DNA from: a virus
Direction: 5' to 3' (one strand)
Length of the DNA: 22,974 nucleotides
IMG/VR virus record: IMGVR_UViG_3300010883_000524
Location: 1 to 22,974 of that record
The position numbers and the translations under genes are program-made. A model generated the notes under the pieces. The model saw only the letters and a program-made list of their open reading frames with translations. It was not told the DNA's origin and did not search any database. This document shows, one piece after another, positions 3,682 through 22,974 of the stretch. Numbering within the stretch: position 1 is the first letter of the stretch; each line of letters starts with the position of its first letter.

Positions 3682-4983
3682 ATGGCAACACCTACTTTAA
3701 CCCCTGCTTCTAAAACGAGCGCTATAAGGCTATCAGTCACCGGGACGCTCACCGACGTGTTTGGAAATCTGCCACTGGGGATATATGGCGGCTCGAATAA
3801 TGGTCTAGAAACCGTTGGTCAGCAGGACTTTATTTCCGGCGCCGTAGACCAAGTTGCTTATGTTTATAAAAAACTTGGTGGCGACGTGCTTGATGTTGAA
3901 ATAACTGATGGTCAAGTATATACAGCCTACGAAGAGGCAACGTTGGAATATTCTTACCTTTTAAACATCCATCAGGCGAAAAACATCCTTGGTAATGTTC
4001 TTGGTGGTACAACCGGCTCGTTTGACGAAGACGGTCAGTTACCCTCGGGTCATGTGCTTGAAGGGAAAAACGTTAATCTTAGGATCCCACGATTTGACTT
4101 TGCGTACGCCCGTCGCGTCTCGGAGGGTATTTCCGCGGAAGCACAGATGGGGAATAGCCAAATATATTCTGCGTCCTTTGCTTTAACTGGCGGCGTTCAG
4201 GATTATGACTTGCAAAAGGCGATTTATAATGCTTCCGCAGATTCGGACAATAGCGACTACCCGTATTATAATAAAGTTGGCTTAAACAAAATTAGTATTT
4301 CCAAGATATATTTTAAAACACCTGCTGCGACATGGAGGTTCTTCGGTTATTATGGTGGCTTGAACACTGTTGGAAACCTCGGCACGTACGGTCAATATGC
4401 AGACGATTCGACTTTTCAGGTTGTCCCAGCGTGGCAGAATAAAGCGCAGGCGATGGCTTTCGAAGATTCGATTTATACTCGTAACTCTCATTGGTCGTAC
4501 GAGTTAAGAAACAACACAGTACGGGTATTCCCCATTCCTCCGGAGAGCGGTGGATATCCAGCAAATCTGTGGGTCGACTTTTCTGTTGGAGGCGTGGACA
4601 CTTGGGAGGAGCAGGCAGATCGCAAGGAAGGAGTTGAAGGCATTAATAATATGAATACACTGCCCTTCGAGAACATTCCATATGCGAACATTAATGCAAT
4701 CGGTAAACAGTGGATCCGCCGATTTGCTCTTGCTCTTAGCAAAGAAATGCTTGGGCACGTCCGAAGCAAATTCGCGTCAATTCCGATTCCCGGCAACGAT
4801 GTTTCTTTGAACGGGAGCGATCTTATAAGTCAAGGTAAAGAAGAACAAACTGCTCTAAGAGATGAGCTTAAAACAGTCCTTGACGAACTGACCTACGGGG
4901 AGCTTATGAATAGCGACGCTAGTATGGTCGAGTCTACAAACACAATCCAGCAACACGTGCCCATGCTGATATATAGCGGGTGA
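3682..4983 (+). CDS. Neck / head-to-tail connector protein (T4 gp13-like)
   Basis: 433 residues. Near 55-95 it shows the neck-protein pattern of a helix, an LGGDVLDVEITDGQVY motif and an EEATLEYS helix, resembling the 'LG-PV-ID-V-D-QV' start of gp13-type proteins in T4-like phages. A second conserved block is IGKQWIRRFALALSKEMLG (about 343-361) and the C-terminus ends in a short helical stretch. Such proteins sit on the portal and connect head to tail. The gene is followed by gp14-like and gp15-like genes, the T4 13-14-15 order, which supports the call. It is longer than T4 gp13 (about 309 aa), with a Tyr/Asn-rich middle. ATG follows GGAGG, and no promoter motif is seen in the gap. Which of the two T4 neck proteins it equals is inferred. 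Confidence 0.65.
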   Translation: MATPTLTPASKTSAIRLSVTGTLTDVFGNLPLGIYGGSNNGLETVGQQDFISGAVDQVAYVYKKLGGDVLDVEITDGQVYTAYEEATLEYSYLLNIHQAKNILGNVLGGTTGSFDEDGQLPSGHVLEGKNVNLRIPRFDFAYARRVSEGISAEAQMGNSQIYSASFALTGGVQDYDLQKAIYNASADSDNSDYPYYNKVGLNKISISKIYFKTPAATWRFFGYYGGLNTVGNLGTYGQYADDSTFQVVPAWQNKAQAMAFEDSIYTRNSHWSYELRNNTVRVFPIPPESGGYPANLWVDFSVGGVDTWEEQADRKEGVEGINNMNTLPFENIPYANINAIGKQWIRRFALALSKEMLGHVRSKFASIPIPGNDVSLNGSDLISQGKEEQTALRDELKTVLDELTYGELMNSDASMVESTNTIQQHVPMLIYSG

Positions 4984-4997
4984 GTGGGGGATAGAAC

Positions 4998-5486
4998 ATG
5001 GCAGACGAAAAATGGACACAACCATCAGCGCCACCGCCTCCTTTATTTACTGGGGAAAAAGAGCGGGATCTGGTTAAGCAAGTCAATGACGAATTGATTG
5101 AGCGAGTTATTGGGCAACAAATTGTATATTATCCAATAAGCATAGAACGCACAAATTTTCACCCATTATATGGCGAAGCAATTAATAAAACGTTTTTGCC
5201 GCCGGTACGAGTTTATGCTTTGGTAGAATGGGAAGGAAGTGACACCACCACCTCTAATTTTGGCATTGATAGAAAAAGCTCGATTACTGTACATTTTCAT
5301 AAAAGGCGGCTTGTAGAAGATCAAGACTTATTTGTCCGCGAGGGGGACTTTCTTGCATATGGCAGTAGCTACTATGAGATTGTAAATCTCGGGGAGCCGA
5401 GAGAGATTTTCGGGCAGACGGAACACAAAATGGAAGTGGTGGCTAAATGTATCAAGGCGCGAGAGGGGCTGTTTAATGGCGAGTAA
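4998..5486 (+). CDS. Neck protein (T4 gp14-like)
   Basis: 162 residues. The core pattern resembles T4 gp14: VYYPISIER (43-51), PLYGEA (56-61), YALVEWEGS (73-81), NFGIDRKSSITVHF (87-100), REGDFLAYGSSYYEIVNLGE (114-133) and an EIFGQ (136-140) that matches the 'YQLGQ' region, ending in a short helix. gp14 closes the head neck together with gp13 and contacts the tail terminator. It lies 14 bp after the gp13-like gene and overlaps the gp15-like gene by 11 bp, so the three are probably translated together. The N-terminal 20 residues are proline-rich. It is shorter than T4 gp14 (256 aa). Start ATG follows GGGGGA. Confidence 0.62.
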   Translation: MADEKWTQPSAPPPPLFTGEKERDLVKQVNDELIERVIGQQIVYYPISIERTNFHPLYGEAINKTFLPPVRVYALVEWEGSDTTTSNFGIDRKSSITVHFHKRRLVEDQDLFVREGDFLAYGSSYYEIVNLGEPREIFGQTEHKMEVVAKCIKAREGLFNGE

Positions 5487-6405: not shown

Positions 6406-9339
6406 ATGTCAGTAAAGAGATTCAAGTTTGTATCCCCCGGTATTTTTCTTAACGAGATCGACAACTCGTTTTTACCGGCGACACAGGACAAATCTGGACC
6501 GGTTATTATCGGTCGAACCCTACGCGGACCAGCAATGCGTCCGGTGAAAGTAGAGTCACAAGCAGAACTTGTGGAGATGTTCGGAGCCCCGGTCCCCGGC
6601 GGTCGCGCCAACGATGTTTGGCGAGAGGGTAACCTCCAATCGCCAATGTATGGAACATACGCAGCTATGTCCTATCTTAGAAACAACGGACCAGTTACTA
6701 TGGTTCGCCTGCTCGGTCACGAACACGAAGACCGAACCTCATCCGGAAAGTCGGGTTGGTATGCAGAAAAGGACGCTTGGGCTTTATGGGTTTTCCCGTC
6801 AGGCGGCATCAGCCCGAACCACGAGGTCAGTCTGGCTAACAGCCTCGCCGACCCCGGCTCAGTCACAGGCACTCTAGCGGCAATTTTTTATTCTGACACT
6901 GGAGCCCCGTCACTTAAGGGAAACTCTCGTCATAAAGTGCCGACAGCCATTCAAGGAACCAACGCTGCAATTCAATCTGTCGGCGACAATTATGAGTTCA
7001 AGATGGTGGTGCACTCAGATAACGCTGCCACAACCGAGGCACTCGTTACAACCTTCAACTTCGATAAGAGATCGAGCAAGTTTATTCGCAAAGTGTTTAA
7101 TACCAATCCGGCGCTCTTGAACAGCAACGTTATTGGTACAGGAAACAAGCAAGAATATTTCTTGGGTCAAACTTTTGAAAATAATATTGCCGAGTATTTT
7201 TCCGGTTCGCTGCTTAGCACGACTGGTAATGCAATGGGTATGGTAACTCGTTTAGCGCAGGGACACTCCAGTGGAACAAAGGTCGGAAGCGACTACCGTA
7301 CCGGTGGAGGCGCCGCGGCTGGCTCGTCCGGGTGGATTTTCTCTCAGGATTTGAGCGCAGATCACGCGAGTTTTGCACCGGCAATATCGGCTACTAGTAC
7401 TGTCACCGGTGGCGTAGCTCGCCTGTTTAAAATTCACGCGCTGAATAGTGGTGAATGGGAATCTGCCAATCTTAAGATATCCATCGCGGATATCAAATAT
7501 GCCCGAAACCCAGAGGAAGATCCATATGGGTCGTTCACGGTTCAGGTACGCGGAGTTGGAGATAACGATATTGGTCCGGATATTGTTGAACAGTTTACAA
7601 ACTGCAACCTTAATCCGAATTCAAGCAACTACGTTAAACGAAAAATTGGTGATCAGCTTTTGGCGTGGAGTGAATCCGACCGCCGCTACACCTTTCAGGG
7701 AGATTACGAAAACCAGTCTCGTTACATTCGAATTGAAACTGATGACGATTGTGATAGCGCCGCACTGGATCCACAGTGTTTACCGTTTGGGTTCTTTGGA
7801 CCCCCACGCTTGTCAACCATTATCTTTGACAACGATGCGACGTCAGAGTCTTCTACACTAGTTACGCAGTTTATCGACGGTAATAACACAGACCCTGATA
7901 GTCTCGCCTCTGCTGCCCATAAGGTTGATTTCTATAGTGGGCACCATGTGAAGCTTCAGTTTCCGAAGGTTCCAACACGTGCAACCTCTGAATCCGGATC
8001 GCTTTCAAATAGAAAGCAGGCATATTGGGGAGTTTATGATTTAGAACCCGGTAGTAACAAAATGGTGAATGCCTCTTGGGCGGATCTTATGTATCCACTT
8101 CCCGATGGGTTAGCACCGGGTGCAGCCAATAGCCTTGTAGAGGTATCACAGTTTGTGTTCTCGCTCGATGATGTGGGCTTGGTTGGTACTGGGAACGCCG
8201 ACGCCGCGTGGGCAGAAGGTAAGCGCGCCGCCAAGACATCTTGGAGTGCAAGCGGAAGCGACGGAAACGGCGCAAACGGTAGCTGGTCGGGTTCTCTCGA
8301 TCAGGGAATCGATAAGTTTACAATGCCTCTTTGGGGAGGATTTGATGGGTTAAATATTAAATCTTTAGATCCCTTCGCACCAGATATCGCCATGGCTGCT
8401 GCCTCGACCGACAAGGGCAACTACGCATATTATTCTATCCGAAAGGCAATGGATACTTGTGCAGACTCTGAAGTGGTAGAGATGAATGCAATGGTCGCAC
8501 CGGGCATTACAAATGATAACCTTAACGTGCACATGACAAACATTTGCGAAGCTCGTGGAGACGCTCTTGCGATTCTTGATATTGGTGGAGGCTATAAGCC
8601 CCGTGCCAACCGAGCCGCTGGTGCAGCATTTAGTACTTATGGAGGTACTGTTGACGCTACGCTTAGTCGAATCGAGGGACTTGGTATTAACTCTAGCTAT
8701 GCTTGTTGTTATTACCCTTGGGTTCAGGTTCAAGACCAAGCCAACGGCGCAAGCCTTTGGGCACCCCCATCGGTCGTCGCACTTGGTACGATGGCTAGCT
8801 CGGAAGCTAAATCCGAAGTATGGTTTGCCCCGGCTGGATTTACTCGTGGTGGCTTGACTGAGGGATCTGCTGGTATGCCAGTCACGTCAGTGCGTGATCG
8901 GCTGACCTCGAAAGACAGAGACAAGTTGTATGCAGCAAACGTCAATCCGATTGCTACATTCCCATCAGAGGGAATCGTAATCTTCGGTCAGAAGACTATG
9001 CAGGTAACGCCTTCGGCACTCGATAGAATTAATGTACGTCGATTGATGATTTATGTCAAGAAAGAAATTTCTAAGATGGCAGCAACGACACTCTTTGAGC
9101 CGAATATCCGTTCAACGTGGAATAACTTCTACACTCGTGCGGAACCGTTCTTGAGAAGTGTACAAATCGGTATGGGTCTTATGGACTTCAAGATTATCTT
9201 GGATGAGACTACAACGACACCAGAGTTGATTGACCGCAACATTATGTATGCGAAGATTTTACTTAAGCCGACTCGTGCAATCGAGTTCATTGCCATTGAT
9301 TTCGTGATCACTGATAGTGGAGCATCATTTGAAGATTAA
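6406..9339 (+). CDS. Tail sheath protein (T4 gp18-like)
   Basis: 977 residues. The N-terminus (FVSPGIFLNEIDNSFLPA, then GPVIIGRTLRGPAMRPVKV) is the usual sheath start, with the ELVEMFG segment and MSYLRNNGPVTMVRLLG (about 88-104). The C-terminal core runs from about residue 700 to the end and includes NVNPIATFPSEGIVIFGQKT (about 845-864), INVRRLMIYVKKEISK and WNNFYTRAEPFL, typical of contractile sheaths. The sheath surrounds the tube and contracts to drive it through the cell envelope. T4 gp18 has 659 residues; the extra 300 or so lie in the middle (about 110-640), the surface-exposed insertion domains. AAGGAG precedes the ATG. Tube gene follows, as in T4. Confidence 0.93.
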   Translation: MSVKRFKFVSPGIFLNEIDNSFLPATQDKSGPVIIGRTLRGPAMRPVKVESQAELVEMFGAPVPGGRANDVWREGNLQSPMYGTYAAMSYLRNNGPVTMVRLLGHEHEDRTSSGKSGWYAEKDAWALWVFPSGGISPNHEVSLANSLADPGSVTGTLAAIFYSDTGAPSLKGNSRHKVPTAIQGTNAAIQSVGDNYEFKMVVHSDNAATTEALVTTFNFDKRSSKFIRKVFNTNPALLNSNVIGTGNKQEYFLGQTFENNIAEYFSGSLLSTTGNAMGMVTRLAQGHSSGTKVGSDYRTGGGAAAGSSGWIFSQDLSADHASFAPAISATSTVTGGVARLFKIHALNSGEWESANLKISIADIKYARNPEEDPYGSFTVQVRGVGDNDIGPDIVEQFTNCNLNPNSSNYVKRKIGDQLLAWSESDRRYTFQGDYENQSRYIRIETDDDCDSAALDPQCLPFGFFGPPRLSTIIFDNDATSESSTLVTQFIDGNNTDPDSLASAAHKVDFYSGHHVKLQFPKVPTRATSESGSLSNRKQAYWGVYDLEPGSNKMVNASWADLMYPLPDGLAPGAANSLVEVSQFVFSLDDVGLVGTGNADAAWAEGKRAAKTSWSASGSDGNGANGSWSGSLDQGIDKFTMPLWGGFDGLNIKSLDPFAPDIAMAAASTDKGNYAYYSIRKAMDTCADSEVVEMNAMVAPGITNDNLNVHMTNICEARGDALAILDIGGGYKPRANRAAGAAFSTYGGTVDATLSRIEGLGINSSYACCYYPWVQVQDQANGASLWAPPSVVALGTMASSEAKSEVWFAPAGFTRGGLTEGSAGMPVTSVRDRLTSKDRDKLYAANVNPIATFPSEGIVIFGQKTMQVTPSALDRINVRRLMIYVKKEISKMAATTLFEPNIRSTWNNFYTRAEPFLRSVQIGMGLMDFKIILDETTTTPELIDRNIMYAKILLKPTRAIEFIAIDFVITDSGASFED

Positions 9340-9425: not shown

Positions 9426-9920
9426 ATGTTTTGGTCAAGCCCAAATAGTGAACCGAAAAGAGCATATCGCTGGACGATGGAATTCAATGGAATCCCCCAG
9501 TGGTTGTTGAAAAAAGTTACAAAGCCTAGTTTTGCAGTAACAGAAACTGCACACACCTATCTAAACCACAAGTTCTTCTACCCCGGTAGAGTTGAGTGGA
9601 ACACCATTAATATTACATTGGCGGATCCGGTTACCCCGGATGCATCAAAGACAATTATGGATATTATTGGACACGCGGGCTACCACGCCCCTACTGATTC
9701 GACCGACACTCAAACAATGTCAAAGTCGAAAGCAGTTGCAAACTTCGGAAATCCGTTGACGATTAATCAACTGGGTCCGGACAATCAGGTTGTAGAGCGC
9801 TGGGAACTATATAATCCTTGGATCAAGGATGTAAAGTTTGGAGAACTCGATTACGAATCTGACGATATGGTTGATATCGAGCTTGAAATTCGTTATGACT
9901 ACGCTAAAATTACAAAATAA
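9426..9920 (+). CDS. Tail tube protein (T4 gp19-like)
   Basis: 164 residues, almost the same as T4 gp19 (163). The overall pattern fits the tube beta-barrel: an N-terminal strand (YRWTMEFNGIPQWLLKKVTK), a central loop with HKFFYPGRVEWNTINITLAD, and a C-terminal block NPWIKDVKFGELDYESDDMV followed by an IELEIRYDYA strand, equal to T4 'GLWPTNVGELQLDWDSNNEI...LALDYWE'. It polymerises inside the sheath to form the DNA channel. Position directly after the sheath matches T4 18-19. AGGAG precedes the ATG. The hairpin at 9347-9382 separates it from the sheath. Confidence 0.88.
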   Translation: MFWSSPNSEPKRAYRWTMEFNGIPQWLLKKVTKPSFAVTETAHTYLNHKFFYPGRVEWNTINITLADPVTPDASKTIMDIIGHAGYHAPTDSTDTQTMSKSKAVANFGNPLTINQLGPDNQVVERWELYNPWIKDVKFGELDYESDDMVDIELEIRYDYAKITK

Positions 9921-9983: not shown

Positions 9984-10844
9984 ATGTCAACTAGAAACAA
10001 TGAGGAACGCTCTGGCGCACGGGCAGCGGCAGACGCTCCTCCCTCTCAAATGGTCTCTTCACAACAGACAGAAACCAATACTTTAGATTTCTCCACTCCA
10101 ACTGAATTCGTAGACCTACCGTCACAGGGAAAATTTTATCCAAGTGATCATCCTTTGCACGGCAAGGACAGCTTGGAAATCCGGTATATGACCGCCAAAG
10201 ACGAAGATATTTTGACGTCAAAGTCTCTTCTTAAAAAGGGTTTGGCAATTGACAGGCTGCTGCAAAATATCATTGTTGATAAGACAGTCAGGATATCAGA
10301 CCTTTTAATCGGAGACAAGAATGCTCTGGTTGTTGCAGCTAGAGTCACAGGGTACGGGGCAGATTATGTAACAAAGGTGACTTGCCCGTCGTGCTTGGAT
10401 TTGCAAGACCACCAGTTTAATCTTGAGGACCATATATTAACTGACGGTGGGATAACGAGTGGCGCCACAGCGACAGATAATGGCATCTGGGAGGTTGTAT
10501 GCCCCAAGAGCAACGTTGCAGTGGGGTTGCGCCTCTTGACAGGAAGGGATGAAAAGCTGCTGATGCAGACCGAGCAATTGCGAAAGAAGCAAAACTTGCC
10601 CGAGTCTCAAGCTACATCGAATCTAAGGCTTATAATCGCGTCTGTCAATGGCAGCGCAGAAGCAGCTACAATTACAAAGTTTATTAATGTTATGCCAGCG
10701 CAAGACGCAAGGTTTGTTCGCAAGGCGTATGACGATTTGATGCCAAACATTGATTTGACTCAACATTTCGAATGTCAAAGTTGTGGTTTTGACATGGATA
10801 TGGAGGTTCCGTTCACAACGGACTTTTTTTGGCCTAAGCAGTGA
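9984..10844 (+). CDS. Baseplate assembly protein, T4 gp26-like (T4_baseplate family)
   Basis: 286 residues. Conserved core: VDLPSQGKFYPSDHPLHGKD (about 43-62), EIRYMTAKDEDILTSKSLLK (65-84), AIDRLLQNIIVDKTVRISDL (88-107) and IGDKNALVVAARVTGYG (109-125). This is the pattern of the T4 baseplate hub/assembly family to which gp26 belongs. Two CxxC pairs, C134/C137 and C264/C267, could bind zinc. The N-terminal 40 residues are disordered and polar. GAGG precedes the ATG, and a TATAAATA box lies upstream. The C-terminus DFFWPKQ-stop is reached through a run of seven T, where ribosomes may shift into the next frame (see 10824-10830). Confidence 0.8.
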   Translation: MSTRNNEERSGARAAADAPPSQMVSSQQTETNTLDFSTPTEFVDLPSQGKFYPSDHPLHGKDSLEIRYMTAKDEDILTSKSLLKKGLAIDRLLQNIIVDKTVRISDLLIGDKNALVVAARVTGYGADYVTKVTCPSCLDLQDHQFNLEDHILTDGGITSGATATDNGIWEVVCPKSNVAVGLRLLTGRDEKLLMQTEQLRKKQNLPESQATSNLRLIIASVNGSAEAATITKFINVMPAQDARFVRKAYDDLMPNIDLTQHFECQSCGFDMDMEVPFTTDFFWPKQ

Positions 10845-11037
10845 ATATATTGAAAGTGTGTATGAACAAATCTTTTTGTTAAAACATCACGGAGGCTGGA
10901 GCTTTATTGAAGCCTATAGCCTCCCGATTGGACTTCGACACTGGTTTGTTAAAAGATTGACCAAGCAGTTCGAGAGAGAAAAAGCAGATATGGACGCTGC
11001 GAAGTCCAAGTCTAAATCGTCTTCACGACGAGGATAA
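10783..11037 (+). CDS. Frameshift extension of the gp26-like protein (baseplate/tail assembly)
   Basis: The frame is open from a GTG at 10783, but 10783-10830 only shadows the end of the gp26-like gene. The meaningful part starts at 10831 and gives 68 residues: GLSSEYIESVYEQIFLLKHH, then GGWSFIEAYSLPIGLRHWFV, a helix, and a Lys/Ser-rich tail. The WSF-EAY-LP-GLR pattern looks like small proteins that follow gp26 in T4-like phages. No ribosome site precedes GTG 10783 or the later GTG 10858 and ATT 10849. The frame is +1 relative to gp26, and the T-run 10824-10830 joins the two as ...DFF-GLSS. A fusion of about 350 residues is therefore likely, comparable to the G/GT tail assembly chaperones. 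A terminator follows. Independent initiation is possible but less likely. Confidence 0.6.
   Translation: MVLTWIWRFRSQRTFFGLSSEYIESVYEQIFLLKHHGGWSFIEAYSLPIGLRHWFVKRLTKQFEREKADMDAAKSKSKSSSRRG
10824..10830 (+). other. Candidate ribosomal frameshift site (T7 run)
   Basis: In the gp26-like frame the codons are GAC TTT TTT TGG CCT AAG CAG TGA. Skipping one T (+1), or slipping back two, places the ribosome in GGC CTA AGC, the frame of the conserved downstream protein. The seven T occur 12 bases before the TGA. This is inferred from the lack of a start signal for the downstream frame and from conservation of sequence starting exactly at this point. Confidence 0.55.
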
Positions 11038-11483: not shown

Positions 11484-14400
11484 ATGGCTGAAAAAACCGT
11501 ACAACAGCTTGAGGCAGAGGGAGCCCAGTTAGCTAAAAACAAACAGCAACTGGGCGAGATCAATTCTGCGGAAGAAGCTCGCAGGACGATTCAGGGTCAT
11601 ATCATTGACTCGCAAAAAGAACAATTATCAACCCTCCAGCGAATTAAACAAGATTACGCCGGATATCATTCAGAGCTTTCAGACTCCGTAATTGTAGCCG
11701 AGCAGCAACTGACGAAGCTTAAAGAGCAGGGGACCGCCTCCGCGGACCTTATAAAGCAGGCTGAAGAGCAGGTTCTGCTATCTAAGGAAAATCTAGACTA
11801 TGCTATAGCCAATAAGGATGTTACGGAAGAGCACCTTGATTCATTGGGCGAAGAACTTAGTGTACGCCAACGAATCAATGGCGCTATGGACGAGGCTGCT
11901 GATAAGTCCGATCGCGCTAATGACAGCATATCAAATTCATTGACGATGCTAACAAATGTTAGTGCTAATTGGGAAGACACCGGCGCCGGCGCTTTTGCTG
12001 CCACTGCGGCAACAGAGGGCTTCGGGGCTGCGATTGGAAAGGTTGCCGTTGAGTCTAAAAAATTATTATCAACGGCGAACATTCTTGGCTCTGGGCTCCT
12101 GCAAATCGGTGTCAACTTGATGCAAATGGTGTTTGCTTTGGATGGCGCACGTGCGGAGTTTAACCGCACCACCGGTGCAGCAGGAAAATACGATGAAGTA
12201 ATCTCGCGCAACTATGAGACGACGCTGGCAATGGGTGGTTCTATAGAACAGCAGAATGCATCCCTCCAGAGCCTGCGTAACAACCTTACCTCCTTTAGTA
12301 AGCTGGGCGCAGAGGCAACCGACGAAACTGTAAACTTGGTAACAGCAATGCAGTTGTTGGGCGCAAGCACGGACGACTCAGTGAAGACATTAGAATTCGC
12401 TCAAACCGTAATGGGAAAAACAGGAAAAGAATCTCAACAATTTGGGGCAGATCTCAAGGGTTTCGCAGACAAATTTGATATGGACTTTAATGTTGTAATG
12501 GGCAACTTTGCACAACATATGGATACTTTTGCAGCCGAAGGCGAGAATGCTGGAAAAGAGTTTATGAGAATGCAAGCCATAGCAAAGAAGACAGGAATTG
12601 AGCTTGGTAATCTCATAGAACTAACAGAACAATATGACACCATTTCCGGAGCAGCCGCTGCCACGGCGAAGCTGAATGCTGCTCTAGGGGGCGCTTACCT
12701 TAGCTCAAACGATATGATGAACAAATCTCTTTCTGAGAGAATGATCGCTATTCGTGGAGCAATCGATGCGTCCGGAAAAGATTTTAAATCTATGACCCGC
12801 GCCGAGAGACAATATTATACCAACGCTCTGGGACTTAAAAGTGTGACGGCTGCAACAAAACTCTTCGGGGATATGTCAGCCGAAGAAATGGCAAGGGTCG
12901 CCAAAGAAGCTGAAGACGCCGGTATGAGTATCGAGGAGATGATGAATCAGACTGAGCACGGTATGACAGCAGGTCAAAAATTTAGCGCTGTGTTGGCATC
13001 TTTAGCAGATATAGCTGCGCCAATTGCGACTCTGTTTAATGGGATTGCGACGGCATTTCTTGCGATTAGGAATTCTCTCGGCGGCGGGCTTGTCGGCACA
13101 GTTGCAGCCTTGGGCGCAGCATTTCTTGCACTTCGTATGGTGCCCAAACTGCTCGGACACATCTCCACCGCTGGAAGTGGAATGGCTGCAAAGTTTGCCA
13201 CAGCCATGCCGAAGACGAGTAAAGCAATGGGGAGTATATTTGGGAAGGGTCCAGCCGGCGACCCAAAAAAGAAAGGCAAGGCTATTTCTACGTCGATTCG
13301 GCAGATAGGTAAAGCGGCGCAAGATACTTGGCGCGGACTGCTTGCGCTCGGTCTCACATTTATTTTAATATCGGTTGCTGTCTTTATCGCAGCTAAGGGC
13401 GTCGCAGAATTGGTAAGGTCTTTTGAAGGCTTCTCAGCCACCCAGATTTTAGCAATTTCTGTTGCAATTGGAGTCTTTGGTTTAATGATGGTTAAACTTT
13501 TGACCGTGTTGGCTGGTGTTGCAACCGCCGCACCTGCCGTAGCCACGGGCTTGGTACCTTTAGGGTTTGCGATGCTCCTTATTGGCGGGGCAGTTGCCCT
13601 CGCCGCTTGGGGAATGGGGTTTCTGGTAAAAGCTTTTAAGAGTATACTGGGAAAGTTGGGAGACTTTGGTACCTTTGTTGGGTTGATGGTGACACTGGCA
13701 GTCGCATCCGTTGGCGTCGGTGCCGGCGGGCTTCTCGCTATGGGTGGCTTGATTGCCATGTCTCTCGGTCTCCTCGCCTTGGCATTTTCATTGTTTTTCA
13801 TATCAACAGACGATCTAACTGCCCTTGGAAATATGATGCAAGGCTTAGGTAAGGTTGCTGAGCACGCTGGCACAGGAATGGGCTCTGCGGTACCTCAGGT
13901 TAAATCATTAATGCACACGCTCTTGGGTCTTGGTATGTGGATTCGAATGTTCAAACTGGAAGATTCCTTGAGATCAATGGGAGATGGGTTTTGGATGATG
14001 GGCTTTGGCGCGGAACGCGCAGTCACAACCCTCCCTTTGTTGGCGTCTCCATTACAAATGATCGCCGAGGCGACTGGTAAGTGGGCAGATAACTTGGGCA
14101 GGCTTATGGGGCAATTGCCGATGTTCGTGATGCTTATGGGCGGTCTCGCATTGGCACTTATGGGTATCGGTTGGGCTTGGTTTGGAATATTGGCTGTGAC
14201 CGGCTTAGCCTATGGTTTAGCTGAGTCCCTGTCGGCACTTCCTGAGTCCAAAGCGGGAACATTCACGAGAATGATAGAGACCCTAGAAGATGCAACTCCT
14301 GCGATGCAGCAGATAACCCCGGCAGTTGTCGATAACGTGACAGGTCTGGTTGAGCAGGCACACGCATATCAGAGCGCCGTGAGTTATGGCGGCATTTTTG

Positions 14401-14570
14401 ATGGTTTCGCGGATATGCTGGGCTTAGCTTCTTCTACTTCGAAACGCGGAGGCGGTGGTGGTGGAGACACTGCGCCTACGACCGTTATTTTGGAGTTGGA
14501 CCACAAGGAGCTAGGTCGGGTTGTCGACAAGTTGGTATCGAAAAAACATCGAGTATCGGTAAGCGAATAA
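11484..14570 (+). CDS. Tail tape measure protein
   Basis: 1028 residues. Residues 1-145 are a Gln/Glu/Lys-rich coiled coil. 195-220 is hydrophobic, 230-500 mostly helical and soluble, and about 505-560, 617-640, 653-712, 726-772 and 878-912 are strongly hydrophobic Gly/Ala-rich stretches like membrane-inserting segments. A Gly-rich linker (988-994) precedes a short final domain, TTVILELDHKELGRVVDKLV. This layout is typical of tape measures, which fill the tube, set tail length and help DNA cross the inner membrane. At the usual ~1.5 Å per residue the tail would be about 150 nm. T4 gp29 is shorter (590 aa). The long antisense open frames over it are composition shadows. Start: ATG 11484 with GAGG 10 bp upstream. 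Confidence 0.85.
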   Translation: MAEKTVQQLEAEGAQLAKNKQQLGEINSAEEARRTIQGHIIDSQKEQLSTLQRIKQDYAGYHSELSDSVIVAEQQLTKLKEQGTASADLIKQAEEQVLLSKENLDYAIANKDVTEEHLDSLGEELSVRQRINGAMDEAADKSDRANDSISNSLTMLTNVSANWEDTGAGAFAATAATEGFGAAIGKVAVESKKLLSTANILGSGLLQIGVNLMQMVFALDGARAEFNRTTGAAGKYDEVISRNYETTLAMGGSIEQQNASLQSLRNNLTSFSKLGAEATDETVNLVTAMQLLGASTDDSVKTLEFAQTVMGKTGKESQQFGADLKGFADKFDMDFNVVMGNFAQHMDTFAAEGENAGKEFMRMQAIAKKTGIELGNLIELTEQYDTISGAAAATAKLNAALGGAYLSSNDMMNKSLSERMIAIRGAIDASGKDFKSMTRAERQYYTNALGLKSVTAATKLFGDMSAEEMARVAKEAEDAGMSIEEMMNQTEHGMTAGQKFSAVLASLADIAAPIATLFNGIATAFLAIRNSLGGGLVGTVAALGAAFLALRMVPKLLGHISTAGSGMAAKFATAMPKTSKAMGSIFGKGPAGDPKKKGKAISTSIRQIGKAAQDTWRGLLALGLTFILISVAVFIAAKGVAELVRSFEGFSATQILAISVAIGVFGLMMVKLLTVLAGVATAAPAVATGLVPLGFAMLLIGGAVALAAWGMGFLVKAFKSILGKLGDFGTFVGLMVTLAVASVGVGAGGLLAMGGLIAMSLGLLALAFSLFFISTDDLTALGNMMQGLGKVAEHAGTGMGSAVPQVKSLMHTLLGLGMWIRMFKLEDSLRSMGDGFWMMGFGAERAVTTLPLLASPLQMIAEATGKWADNLGRLMGQLPMFVMLMGGLALALMGIGWAWFGILAVTGLAYGLAESLSALPESKAGTFTRMIETLEDATPAMQQITPAVVDNVTGLVEQAHAYQSAVSYGGIFDGFADMLGLASSTSKRGGGGGGDTAPTTVILELDHKELGRVVDKLVSKKHRVSVSE

Positions 14571-20653: not shown

Positions 20654-21838
20654 TTGATTTTTCACACTTTAGACACAAAGACAGAGTGCGCGGGGATATA
20701 CACAAACGGCAAGATATATCGGGGACAGCCCCCGGCAGAGTTGTCGGCGACGTGGAAGTATGTTTCTAGCTTAAATTTACCCGTAGAATATGTTAGTCTA
20801 TATTGTGCTGGAAAAACACTTGAGGAAATGTGCCCATTGAACAAGTCGCAAGCTTGGGCAGATATTAATGACATCTTGCGAAATCATCTGACTGCGTGCA
20901 GAGCAGCTAAAGTCGATTTGGAACAGAACTGCTTTTATGACATTGTACCCGAAAAGTTTTTATTACAGTATTGCAGTCTGCGTACGGACATTACAGAGCA
21001 CGTGCTTAAAACATGCCCAAAACCAGAGAACTACGGCTTCTTGTTGCAACTGGTTAAAATGATATCTAAAATAAAAGAGCAGCCCCTAAACGTAGATTCA
21101 TCAAGTCTGATAGGGTATATGGCTCTTCCTCGCGCACGTGCATTATATAAAAAAATGGTTCGGAATCCCGAACAGAGAATAGACTATGATGCGTTTAGAT
21201 CCAAAACAGGTCGGCTTACGACCACCAAATCCAGCTTTCCGATCCTTACGTTGGATCGGAATTTTCGCTCGATAATAAAACCAAACAACGATTATTTTGT
21301 GGAGCTTGACTTCAACGCAGCGGAGCTTCGTACACTTTTAGCCTTGTCAGATAAGGAACAACCTAAGGGTGATATTCACGACTGGAATATAAAAAATATA
21401 TACGGTGGCGCCTTAACAAGAGACGAAGCTAAAAAGAAAATATTCGCTTGGTTGTACAACCCGGAGTCTAAGGACCGCTTCCCAGCCACCGCCTATAACC
21501 GCACAGCAGTCCTCGATAAATACTTTGACAAAGGGTTCGTGCGTACACCTTTTGATAGACTTATTCCGGCGGATCACCACCACGCGCTCAATTATATTGT
21601 TCAGAGTACAACGAGTGACTTATTTTTAAAAAGAGCAATTGCGGTCGGTGAGCAGCTTGAAAATAAAAAATCAAACATTGCGTTCTTGCTCCACGACTCC
21701 TTGGTTATTGATTTTTCTAAAGAAGATTCGAGCGCTTTAGGTACCCTGATTGAGTCGTTTTCAAACACGCACTTTGGAGAGTACGTTACAAATATCTCCG
21801 TTGGTAAAAACTTTGGCTCGATGAGGAGACATAAATAA
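20654..21838 (+). CDS. Compact family-A DNA polymerase-like protein
   Basis: 394 residues, starting at TTG 20654 (TGA is the codon just before; first internal ATG is far downstream). Family-A signatures are in order: SKTGRLTTT (183-191, the TGR motif), FVELDFNAAELRTLL (motif A; D219, E224, R226), RDEAKKKIFAWLY (256-268; R256, K260, F264, Y268 with exact +4 spacing, motif B/O-helix), ALNYIVQSTTSD (N313, Q317) and LLHDSLVI (motif C; H347, D348, S349 in place of Glu). There is no 3'-5' or 5'-3' exonuclease domain; the first 150 residues are unrecognised. Pol I is over 900 residues, so this is a reduced palm/fingers. T4-like phages replicate with a family-B enzyme, so a second, special role is likely. 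It overlaps the next gene by 1 bp. Confidence 0.78.
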   Translation: MIFHTLDTKTECAGIYTNGKIYRGQPPAELSATWKYVSSLNLPVEYVSLYCAGKTLEEMCPLNKSQAWADINDILRNHLTACRAAKVDLEQNCFYDIVPEKFLLQYCSLRTDITEHVLKTCPKPENYGFLLQLVKMISKIKEQPLNVDSSSLIGYMALPRARALYKKMVRNPEQRIDYDAFRSKTGRLTTTKSSFPILTLDRNFRSIIKPNNDYFVELDFNAAELRTLLALSDKEQPKGDIHDWNIKNIYGGALTRDEAKKKIFAWLYNPESKDRFPATAYNRTAVLDKYFDKGFVRTPFDRLIPADHHHALNYIVQSTTSDLFLKRAIAVGEQLENKKSNIAFLLHDSLVIDFSKEDSSALGTLIESFSNTHFGEYVTNISVGKNFGSMRRHK

Positions 21839-22709: not shown

Positions 22710-22768
22710 ATATACTAGAAACTTGGAAGATTAGCTGAGTTTACTTTAACAATTAGGAGAAAGGTCAA

Positions 22769-22974
22769 TGGCTATTGATTTGAAGAAAATGCAAGAGAGA
22801 AAGTTCGCTCTTGATAACCGCGGCGGTTCACAAAAGAATGGGTTTTGGAAACCACAGGATGGAGAACAGACCATTCGGATTATTCCGACTGCGGATGGAG
22901 ATCCTTTCAAGGATTATTGGTTCCACTATAATGTGGGCAAGAATTCTGGGTTTATGTGCCCGAAGAAGAATTAC
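22769..22974 (+). CDS. Single-stranded DNA-binding protein (T4 gp32-like), N-terminal part
   Basis: 68 codons are visible before the right edge cuts the gene. It starts MAIDLKKMQERKFALDN and continues NGFWKPQDGEQTIRIIPTAD (24-43), the gp32-family opening ('W...DG....IR.LP....'), then DPFKDYWFHYNVGKNSGFMC PKKNY, which should lead into the zinc-binding region (first Cys visible at the end, residue 64). gp32 coats ssDNA and coordinates replication, recombination and repair. TAGGAG is 8 bp before the ATG, and the sigma70-like promoter is upstream. Length and C-terminal domain lie outside the window. Confidence 0.82.

Follow-up and report, generated by a model that had tools for sequence, protein, structure and literature searches.

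Phage tail assembly chaperones can be made in two versions from one gene. For the G/GT proteins of phage lambda, and for the HK97 chaperones, a frameshift near the 3' end of the gene yields both products, and the gene lies between those for the tail tube and the tape measure protein. The lambda shift is -1. Phage Mu uses a -2 shift in its tail chaperone gene and the haloarchaeal myovirus HSTV-2 very likely uses +1 (PMC5009743). Phage T4 differs in having two genes, 26 and 51. Both products belong to PF12322, with gp51 consisting of a gp26-like domain and a C-terminal extension. The two genes are paralogues and are divergently transcribed (L351, positions 3803-5229). According to papers that cite it (PMC10885494, PMC12846349), work by Vladimirov, Gautam and Davidson in 2022 has already described the chaperone genes of T4-like phages, the arrangement with two genes, and polyT -1 sites. 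PMC12846349 names such sites for T4-like phages.

Here, we describe a gp26-like gene that probably produces its long form by a +1 shift. The gene is found in a stretch of 22,974 nucleotides from a marine T4-like virus (IMG/VR record IMGVR_UViG_3300010883_000524), hereafter called the window. An initial annotation proposed that gp26 is extended by programmed frameshifting. Our analysis supports this, and it is by far the best reading of the locus. Judged from sequence, the whole explanation, a +1-frameshifted tail assembly chaperone of a T4-type phage with short and long forms, has a probability of roughly 0.86. The relevant features are as follows.

6406-9339, sheath gene
9426-9920, + strand, tail tube protein (gp19-like), upstream neighbour; matches phrog_4542 tail tube at E 6.5e-28
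9984-10844, + strand, gp26-like open reading frame, predicted short tail assembly chaperone product of 286 amino acids (TAC-N); PF12322, phrog_150 and AlphaFold model
10808-10822, + strand, predicted 5' hairpin TCCGTT-CAC-AACGGA, whose 3' end is one base short of the slip codons; minimum free energy (MFE) and stem excess
10824-10832, + strand, slip site TTT TTT TGG; shared exactly by 261 relatives
10831-11037, + strand, +1-frame extension of 68 amino acids plus stop; 341/341 relatives, cyanophage gp51 profile match and three-helix model
10842-10844, + strand, 0-frame stop TGA ending the short product; read directly
11484-14570, + strand, probable tape measure protein of 1028 amino acids, downstream neighbour; position, size and annotation of relatives

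As with gp26 and gp51 of T4-like phages, the products belong to one protein family and would comprise a short form and a long form with the gp51 C-terminal domain. T4 encodes these in two genes, whereas the window's group would use a +1 shift in one. With lambda and HK97, the locus shares two products, here predicted, from one gene, a frameshift near the 3' end and a position between tube and tape measure. It differs from lambda, where the shift is -1 and the sequence family is another; the gene in the window belongs to PF12322 and has paired CxxC motifs. As in Mu and HSTV-2, the +1 frame is reached within a tail chaperone gene.

At the end of the gp26-like gene (10818-10844), frame 0 reads ACG GAC TTT TTT TGG CCT AAG CAG TGA. 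Past the T-run, the +1 frame reads GGC CTA AGC AGT GAA TAT and onward (G L S S E Y I E S V Y E Q I F) until the stop codon at 11035-11037. This extension, open to 11037, encodes GLSSEYIESVYEQIFLLKHHGGWSFIEAYSLPIGLRHWFVKRLTKQFEREKADMDAAKSKSKSSSRRG. Together, gp26 and the extension compute to a long product of 350 amino acids (TAC-NC, gp51-like). Under a first-order model of the window, an open +1 frame of such length past a stop has a P of about 0.03. Hence, the window alone proves little, and it is conservation that makes the frame real.

Of the 349 loci that we retrieved as relatives of either the gp26 part or the extension, 341 had enough sequence. The domain lies directly after gp26 in all 341. 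It is in the +1 frame in 336 and fused in frame in none. An alignment of the T-run and frames across related phages had been suggested at the outset as a check, and in this comparison the observation holds. In the other five relatives, the domain is in another frame. Two (L009 and L010) are +1 with a later one-nucleotide indel, one (L168) has a -1 slip and in two (L339 and L344) the domain begins at its own ATG past the gp26 stop. A 342nd locus, L167, had no profile match, but inspection placed its domain in the -1 frame. We rejected L009 and L010 as a second frame class; the +1 slip site is kept and one extra base occurs further on. The apparent insertion falls a few codons past the slip site (3839-4060). 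The sequence is identical in two assemblies, so this is a real variant or one shared contig. A scan of genome contigs gave a single locus, on an alphaproteobacterial MAG contig (L436), which combines TTTTTTTGG with a +1-frame domain. No match was returned when phage records were searched at the DNA level with 3 kb. From these sequences, the +1 version seems to be shared by a large group; its members include the window as well as phages of Flavobacterium, Microcystis, Bacillus, Listeria and Streptococcus.

We then took 126 representatives, defined as sequences less than 80% identical. Ahead of the slip site, residue identity in the +1 frame is 0.07-0.31. Identity reaches 0.92-0.95 within the T-run, and the two codons that follow have 0.89 and 0.95. 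No +1-frame stop occurs between the slip site and codon 19 in any of the 126, and, from the slip site onward, the pattern of codon-position variation is that of the +1 frame. The 0-frame stop falls a few codons past the slip site in most relatives. Conserved-looking sequence had been noticed to start at the T-run, and the comparison bears this out; the slip site is exactly where the +1 frame becomes conserved. At the level of sequence, the shift between frames, its position and the conserved domain are demonstrated.

The T-run (10824-10830) is the sole TTTTTTT on the + strand of the window. A P-site UUU can re-pair here with UUU one base forward; the next codon is UGG in frame 0 and GGC in the +1 frame. 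The slip nonamer is TTTTTTTGG in 261 loci, TTTCTTTGG in 41, TTCTTTTGG in 17 and TTTCTATGG in four. Rare variants include TTTTTTCAC in phage SP-15, TTTTTTAGT in LIS04 and TTTCTATTC in an uncultured 484-kb phage, among others. All loci have TTT, CTT or CTA as their second slip codon. TTC never occurs there, although it makes up 27% of Phe codons elsewhere in these genes. Both the T-run and the choice of slip codons are conserved beyond the need of the protein. The arrangement resembles the +1 site of prfB (CUU UGA), in which YUU is followed by U and, probably, a slow A-site codon. The 41 relatives with CUU UGG (CTT TGG in DNA) have a prfB-like CUU-U context. The prfB site differs in having a stop codon and a Shine-Dalgarno sequence 3 nt upstream; the window has the sense codon UGG and a hairpin in place of the Shine-Dalgarno sequence.

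The hairpin has an MFE of -5.5 kcal/mol and a synonymous-shuffle p of 0.007, calculated on L001, whose sequence is identical. Across 184 distinct sequences taken from upstream of the slip site, folding energy averages -4.0, compared with -2.0 in synonymous reshuffles. This excess is strongest beside the slip site and is gone in windows at least 21 nt away. Stems of at least 5 bp adjoin the slip site in 64 of the 126 representatives, against 21.9 expected. Their arms vary, with 42 distinct pairs that include TGTACC/GGTACA, CTGCCG/CGGCAG and TCCGTT/AACGGA. About half of the representatives have no hairpin of at least 5 bp. Eight control windows matched expectation or came close to it; the greatest excess among them was 21 versus 13.3. 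An upstream hairpin beside the site is reported to stimulate +1 shifting in yeast, to attenuate -1 shifting in human cells and to do both in a 70S system (PMC6321510). In the phages described here, the hairpin probably favours the forward move. No prfB-type internal Shine-Dalgarno sequence is present about 3 nt before the slip codon in the window. A GGAGGT occupies 10802-10807, its end 16 nt from the T-run. The clade of the window keeps GGAGGT at about this distance, with no start codon in range; purine-rich stretches resembling GGAGG lie a little further upstream in other clades.

The initial annotation left the direction as +1 or -2. Both shifts reach the same frame, and the T7 run of the window permits either, so the window alone does not decide. 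A -2 slip, as used by Mu (PMC5009743), would give the same chaperone with one extra Phe at the junction (FFFGLSS, where the +1 product is FFGLSS), and 313 of the 336 loci allow it. However, the P-site tRNA can re-pair at +1 in 336/336 loci, while -2 re-pairing is impossible in 23 (TTCTTTTGG, TTTCTATGG, TTTCTATTC and TTCTTTCGT), which fall in 7 of the 126 representatives. The shift is most likely +1 because sites such as TTC TTT TGG bar -2 re-pairing and allow +1. In addition, the site resembles the +1-prone CUU U or UUU U type before UGG, and the upstream hairpin is of a kind reported to act against -1 and for +1. We consider a -2 slip unlikely. Of the two directions first offered, +1 is strongly favoured for the family on these sequence grounds.

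It is also conceivable that no ribosome changes frame. The downstream frame could be an ordinary separate gene with a start inside gp26, and a GTG is indeed present at 10783. The same domain is encoded separately in L339, L344 and Pseudomonas phage Cygsa01 and so can work unfused. In some loci (for example L012, L018, L042, L048 and L078), a Shine-Dalgarno-like GGAGG and a +1-frame ATG occur 20 nt before the slip site. Yet in 76 loci the +1 frame contains neither ATG nor GTG nor TTG ahead of the slip site, and the position of starts in the other loci is not conserved. The lack of a ribosome site at GTG 10783 noted at the outset is confirmed, and this GTG has no bearing on the matter; conserved sequence sets in at 10831 and the +1 frame upstream of the slip site is not conserved. 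Nor would a separate gene call for a T-run and slip codons kept beyond the need of the protein. We regard a separate gene as very improbable. Slippage of RNA polymerase on the T7 run would create mixed transcripts, some encoding the fusion, and most loci do have a homopolymer of seven T. Such transcriptional slippage generally needs longer runs. Moreover, the 41, 17 and four loci with TTTCTTTGG, TTCTTTTGG and TTTCTATGG, respectively, keep the arrangement without a long homopolymer. Because T-runs are interrupted in some loci, we exclude transcriptional slippage, to which we give hardly any credence. Finally, one-base homopolymer errors are common, and a sequencing or assembly indel might split one continuous gene. 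The chance of this is negligible, given that 336 loci, drawn from many contigs as well as from several cultured phages, share one frame relation and that the domain is never in frame. We conclude that programmed +1 frameshifting best explains the locus.

The gp26-like reading frame matches PF12322 (T4_baseplate, gp26/gp51) with an E-value of 7e-11 and 42.6 bits, against a curated cut-off of 24.5. It also matches phrog_150. We modelled the gp26 part and the extension separately. The AlphaFold model of gp26 has a pLDDT of 87.5. Its best matches to solved structures are YqbN (Z 5.4) and the HK97 tail assembly chaperone (Z 4.9), with the next at 3.2. These are the top two of 781 chains and align 79-82 residues at modest Z (<8). 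The predicted gp26-like fold may resemble that of the HK97 chaperone 2ob9. A sequence search of solved structures gave no match. The gene sits between those for the tube and tape measure, as in the annotation of relatives, with one 112-aa reading frame between the gp26-like/extension locus and the probable tape measure gene. The counterpart of the latter is annotated as tape measure in Flavobacterium phage immuto, SP-15 and LIS04; the gene itself (11484-14570) had no convincing family match among Pfam and PHROG profiles. The sheath gene is long (977 aa) and sheath family matches cover only about residue 669 onward, which leaves the first two thirds of the protein, at its N-terminus, unassigned. 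Elsewhere in the window, positions 20654-21838 resemble, by eye, a shortened family-A DNA polymerase core, and 22768-22974 the start of a gp32-like single-strand binding protein.

The extension has a profile match to the cyanophage gp51 segment (E 2.1e-8), and cyanophage gp51 matches the C-terminus of T4 gp51 (E 2.5e-11). The cyanophage segment also matches PHROG 634, baseplate hub assembly catalyst, in 30/30 cases. Compared directly with T4 gp51, the extension gives a weak match (E 0.06). Its model has three helices and a pLDDT of 91.5. Among its best structure matches is Gp51 of P-HM1, with a TM score of 0.78 over the target and a Foldseek E-value of 0.1; none is significant by E-value. By these profile matches, the extension corresponds, through cyanophage gp51, to the C-terminus of T4 gp51. 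We rejected membership of PF20546 (DUF6760), for which the extension scored 20 bits, below the curated cut-off of 27; 11 of 59 relatives match DUF6760 at E<=0.01. DUF6760 may be linked to contractile injection systems of bacteria. NCBIfam matches of the extension were also rejected, being isolated, weak and to unrelated large proteins.

Because of its position between tube and tape measure, the solved-structure matches and the equivalence of the extension with the T4 gp51 C-terminus via cyanophage gp51, the gene is most likely the tail assembly chaperone of a T4-type phage, with a gp26-like short form and a gp51-like long form as predicted from sequence and models. The short form and frameshift-extended long form appear to be paired as in tail assembly chaperones of long-tailed phages. 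Hence, the parallel with lambda G/GT drawn in the initial annotation is closer than was claimed, whereas its label of baseplate assembly gene probably does not stand.

Other T4-type lineages appear to have solved the same problem differently. We inspected 82 cyanophage-type loci, comprising S-RIM8, Aeromonas 65.2, Nitratidesulfovibrio SRB7757 and 79 contigs (L352-L354, L356-L435). In 82/82, a single codon and the stop of gp26 follow TTTTTTC, and in the -1 frame some 60 codons of the gp51 segment stay open. The T TTT TTC in each is a classical -1 slippery heptamer. No upstream start for the gp51 segment was found in any of the 82. The annotated gp51 of S-RIM8 (45 aa) is only an internal piece of that segment. 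Sullivan et al. 2010 reported that cyanophage gp51 is without the first ~200 residues of T4 gp51 (PMC3037559), and fusion by frameshifting would explain this. In Cygsa01, the extension is reached via an overlapping stop-start, TAATG. L339, L344 and L355 encode the extension separately, from an ATG that overlaps the gp26 stop or follows it closely; here, frameshifting has been lost naturally. The extension lies in the -1 frame in Stenotrophomonas phage RAS14 (L167, 3690-3990) and in an uncultured phage of 595 kb (L168, 3570-3930), with slip sequences T TTT TTT and T TTT TTC, respectively.

On this sequence comparison, the direction of shifting would have switched within the T4-type tail chaperone family. 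One proposal, to which we give even odds, is that a homologous T-run FF slip site has been tuned in opposite ways: to -1 (T TTT TTC) in the cyanophage type and to +1 (UUU-U or CUU-U before UGG) in the window's group, where a refolding 5' hairpin would replace the Shine-Dalgarno duplex as a natural +1 stimulator. In the literature covered, which includes the 2022 work by way of its citing papers, we found no description of the +1 version. What appears to be new is this widespread +1 version, its breadth and the covarying upstream hairpin.

Briefly, we propose the following. Most ribosomes would read 9984-10844 and make the 286-aa short chaperone. In a minority, tRNA-Phe would sit on the second UUU (10827-10829) with UGG waiting in the A site. 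After a one-base forward move, probably favoured by the hairpin refolding directly behind the ribosome, the tRNA would re-pair with UUU at 10828-10830 and GGC would be read next. Reading would continue to 11034, giving the 350-aa long form, which includes the additional three-helix domain of T4 gp51. If lambda G/GT is a guide, the tape measure protein may be coated by many copies of the short chaperone and few of the long one, whose additional domain may recruit tail tube subunits.

Few +1 frameshifts in bacterial viruses are well supported, and the present one turns up in hundreds of contigs from environmental phages as well as in several cultured phages. Sister lineages would make the same short and long pair by -1 shifting, +1 shifting, two genes or a separate start. 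Hence, the direction of the shift and the effect of the 5' hairpin are directly comparable between them. The second protein is unannotated or miscut in the annotated phages that we looked at. In cultured phages (L161, L162, L164 and L166), the extension is either not annotated or annotated wrongly; a hypothetical gene overlaps it in Mel-JY01, immuto and SP-15 have only a tail end of 36-39 aa and LIS04 has nothing.
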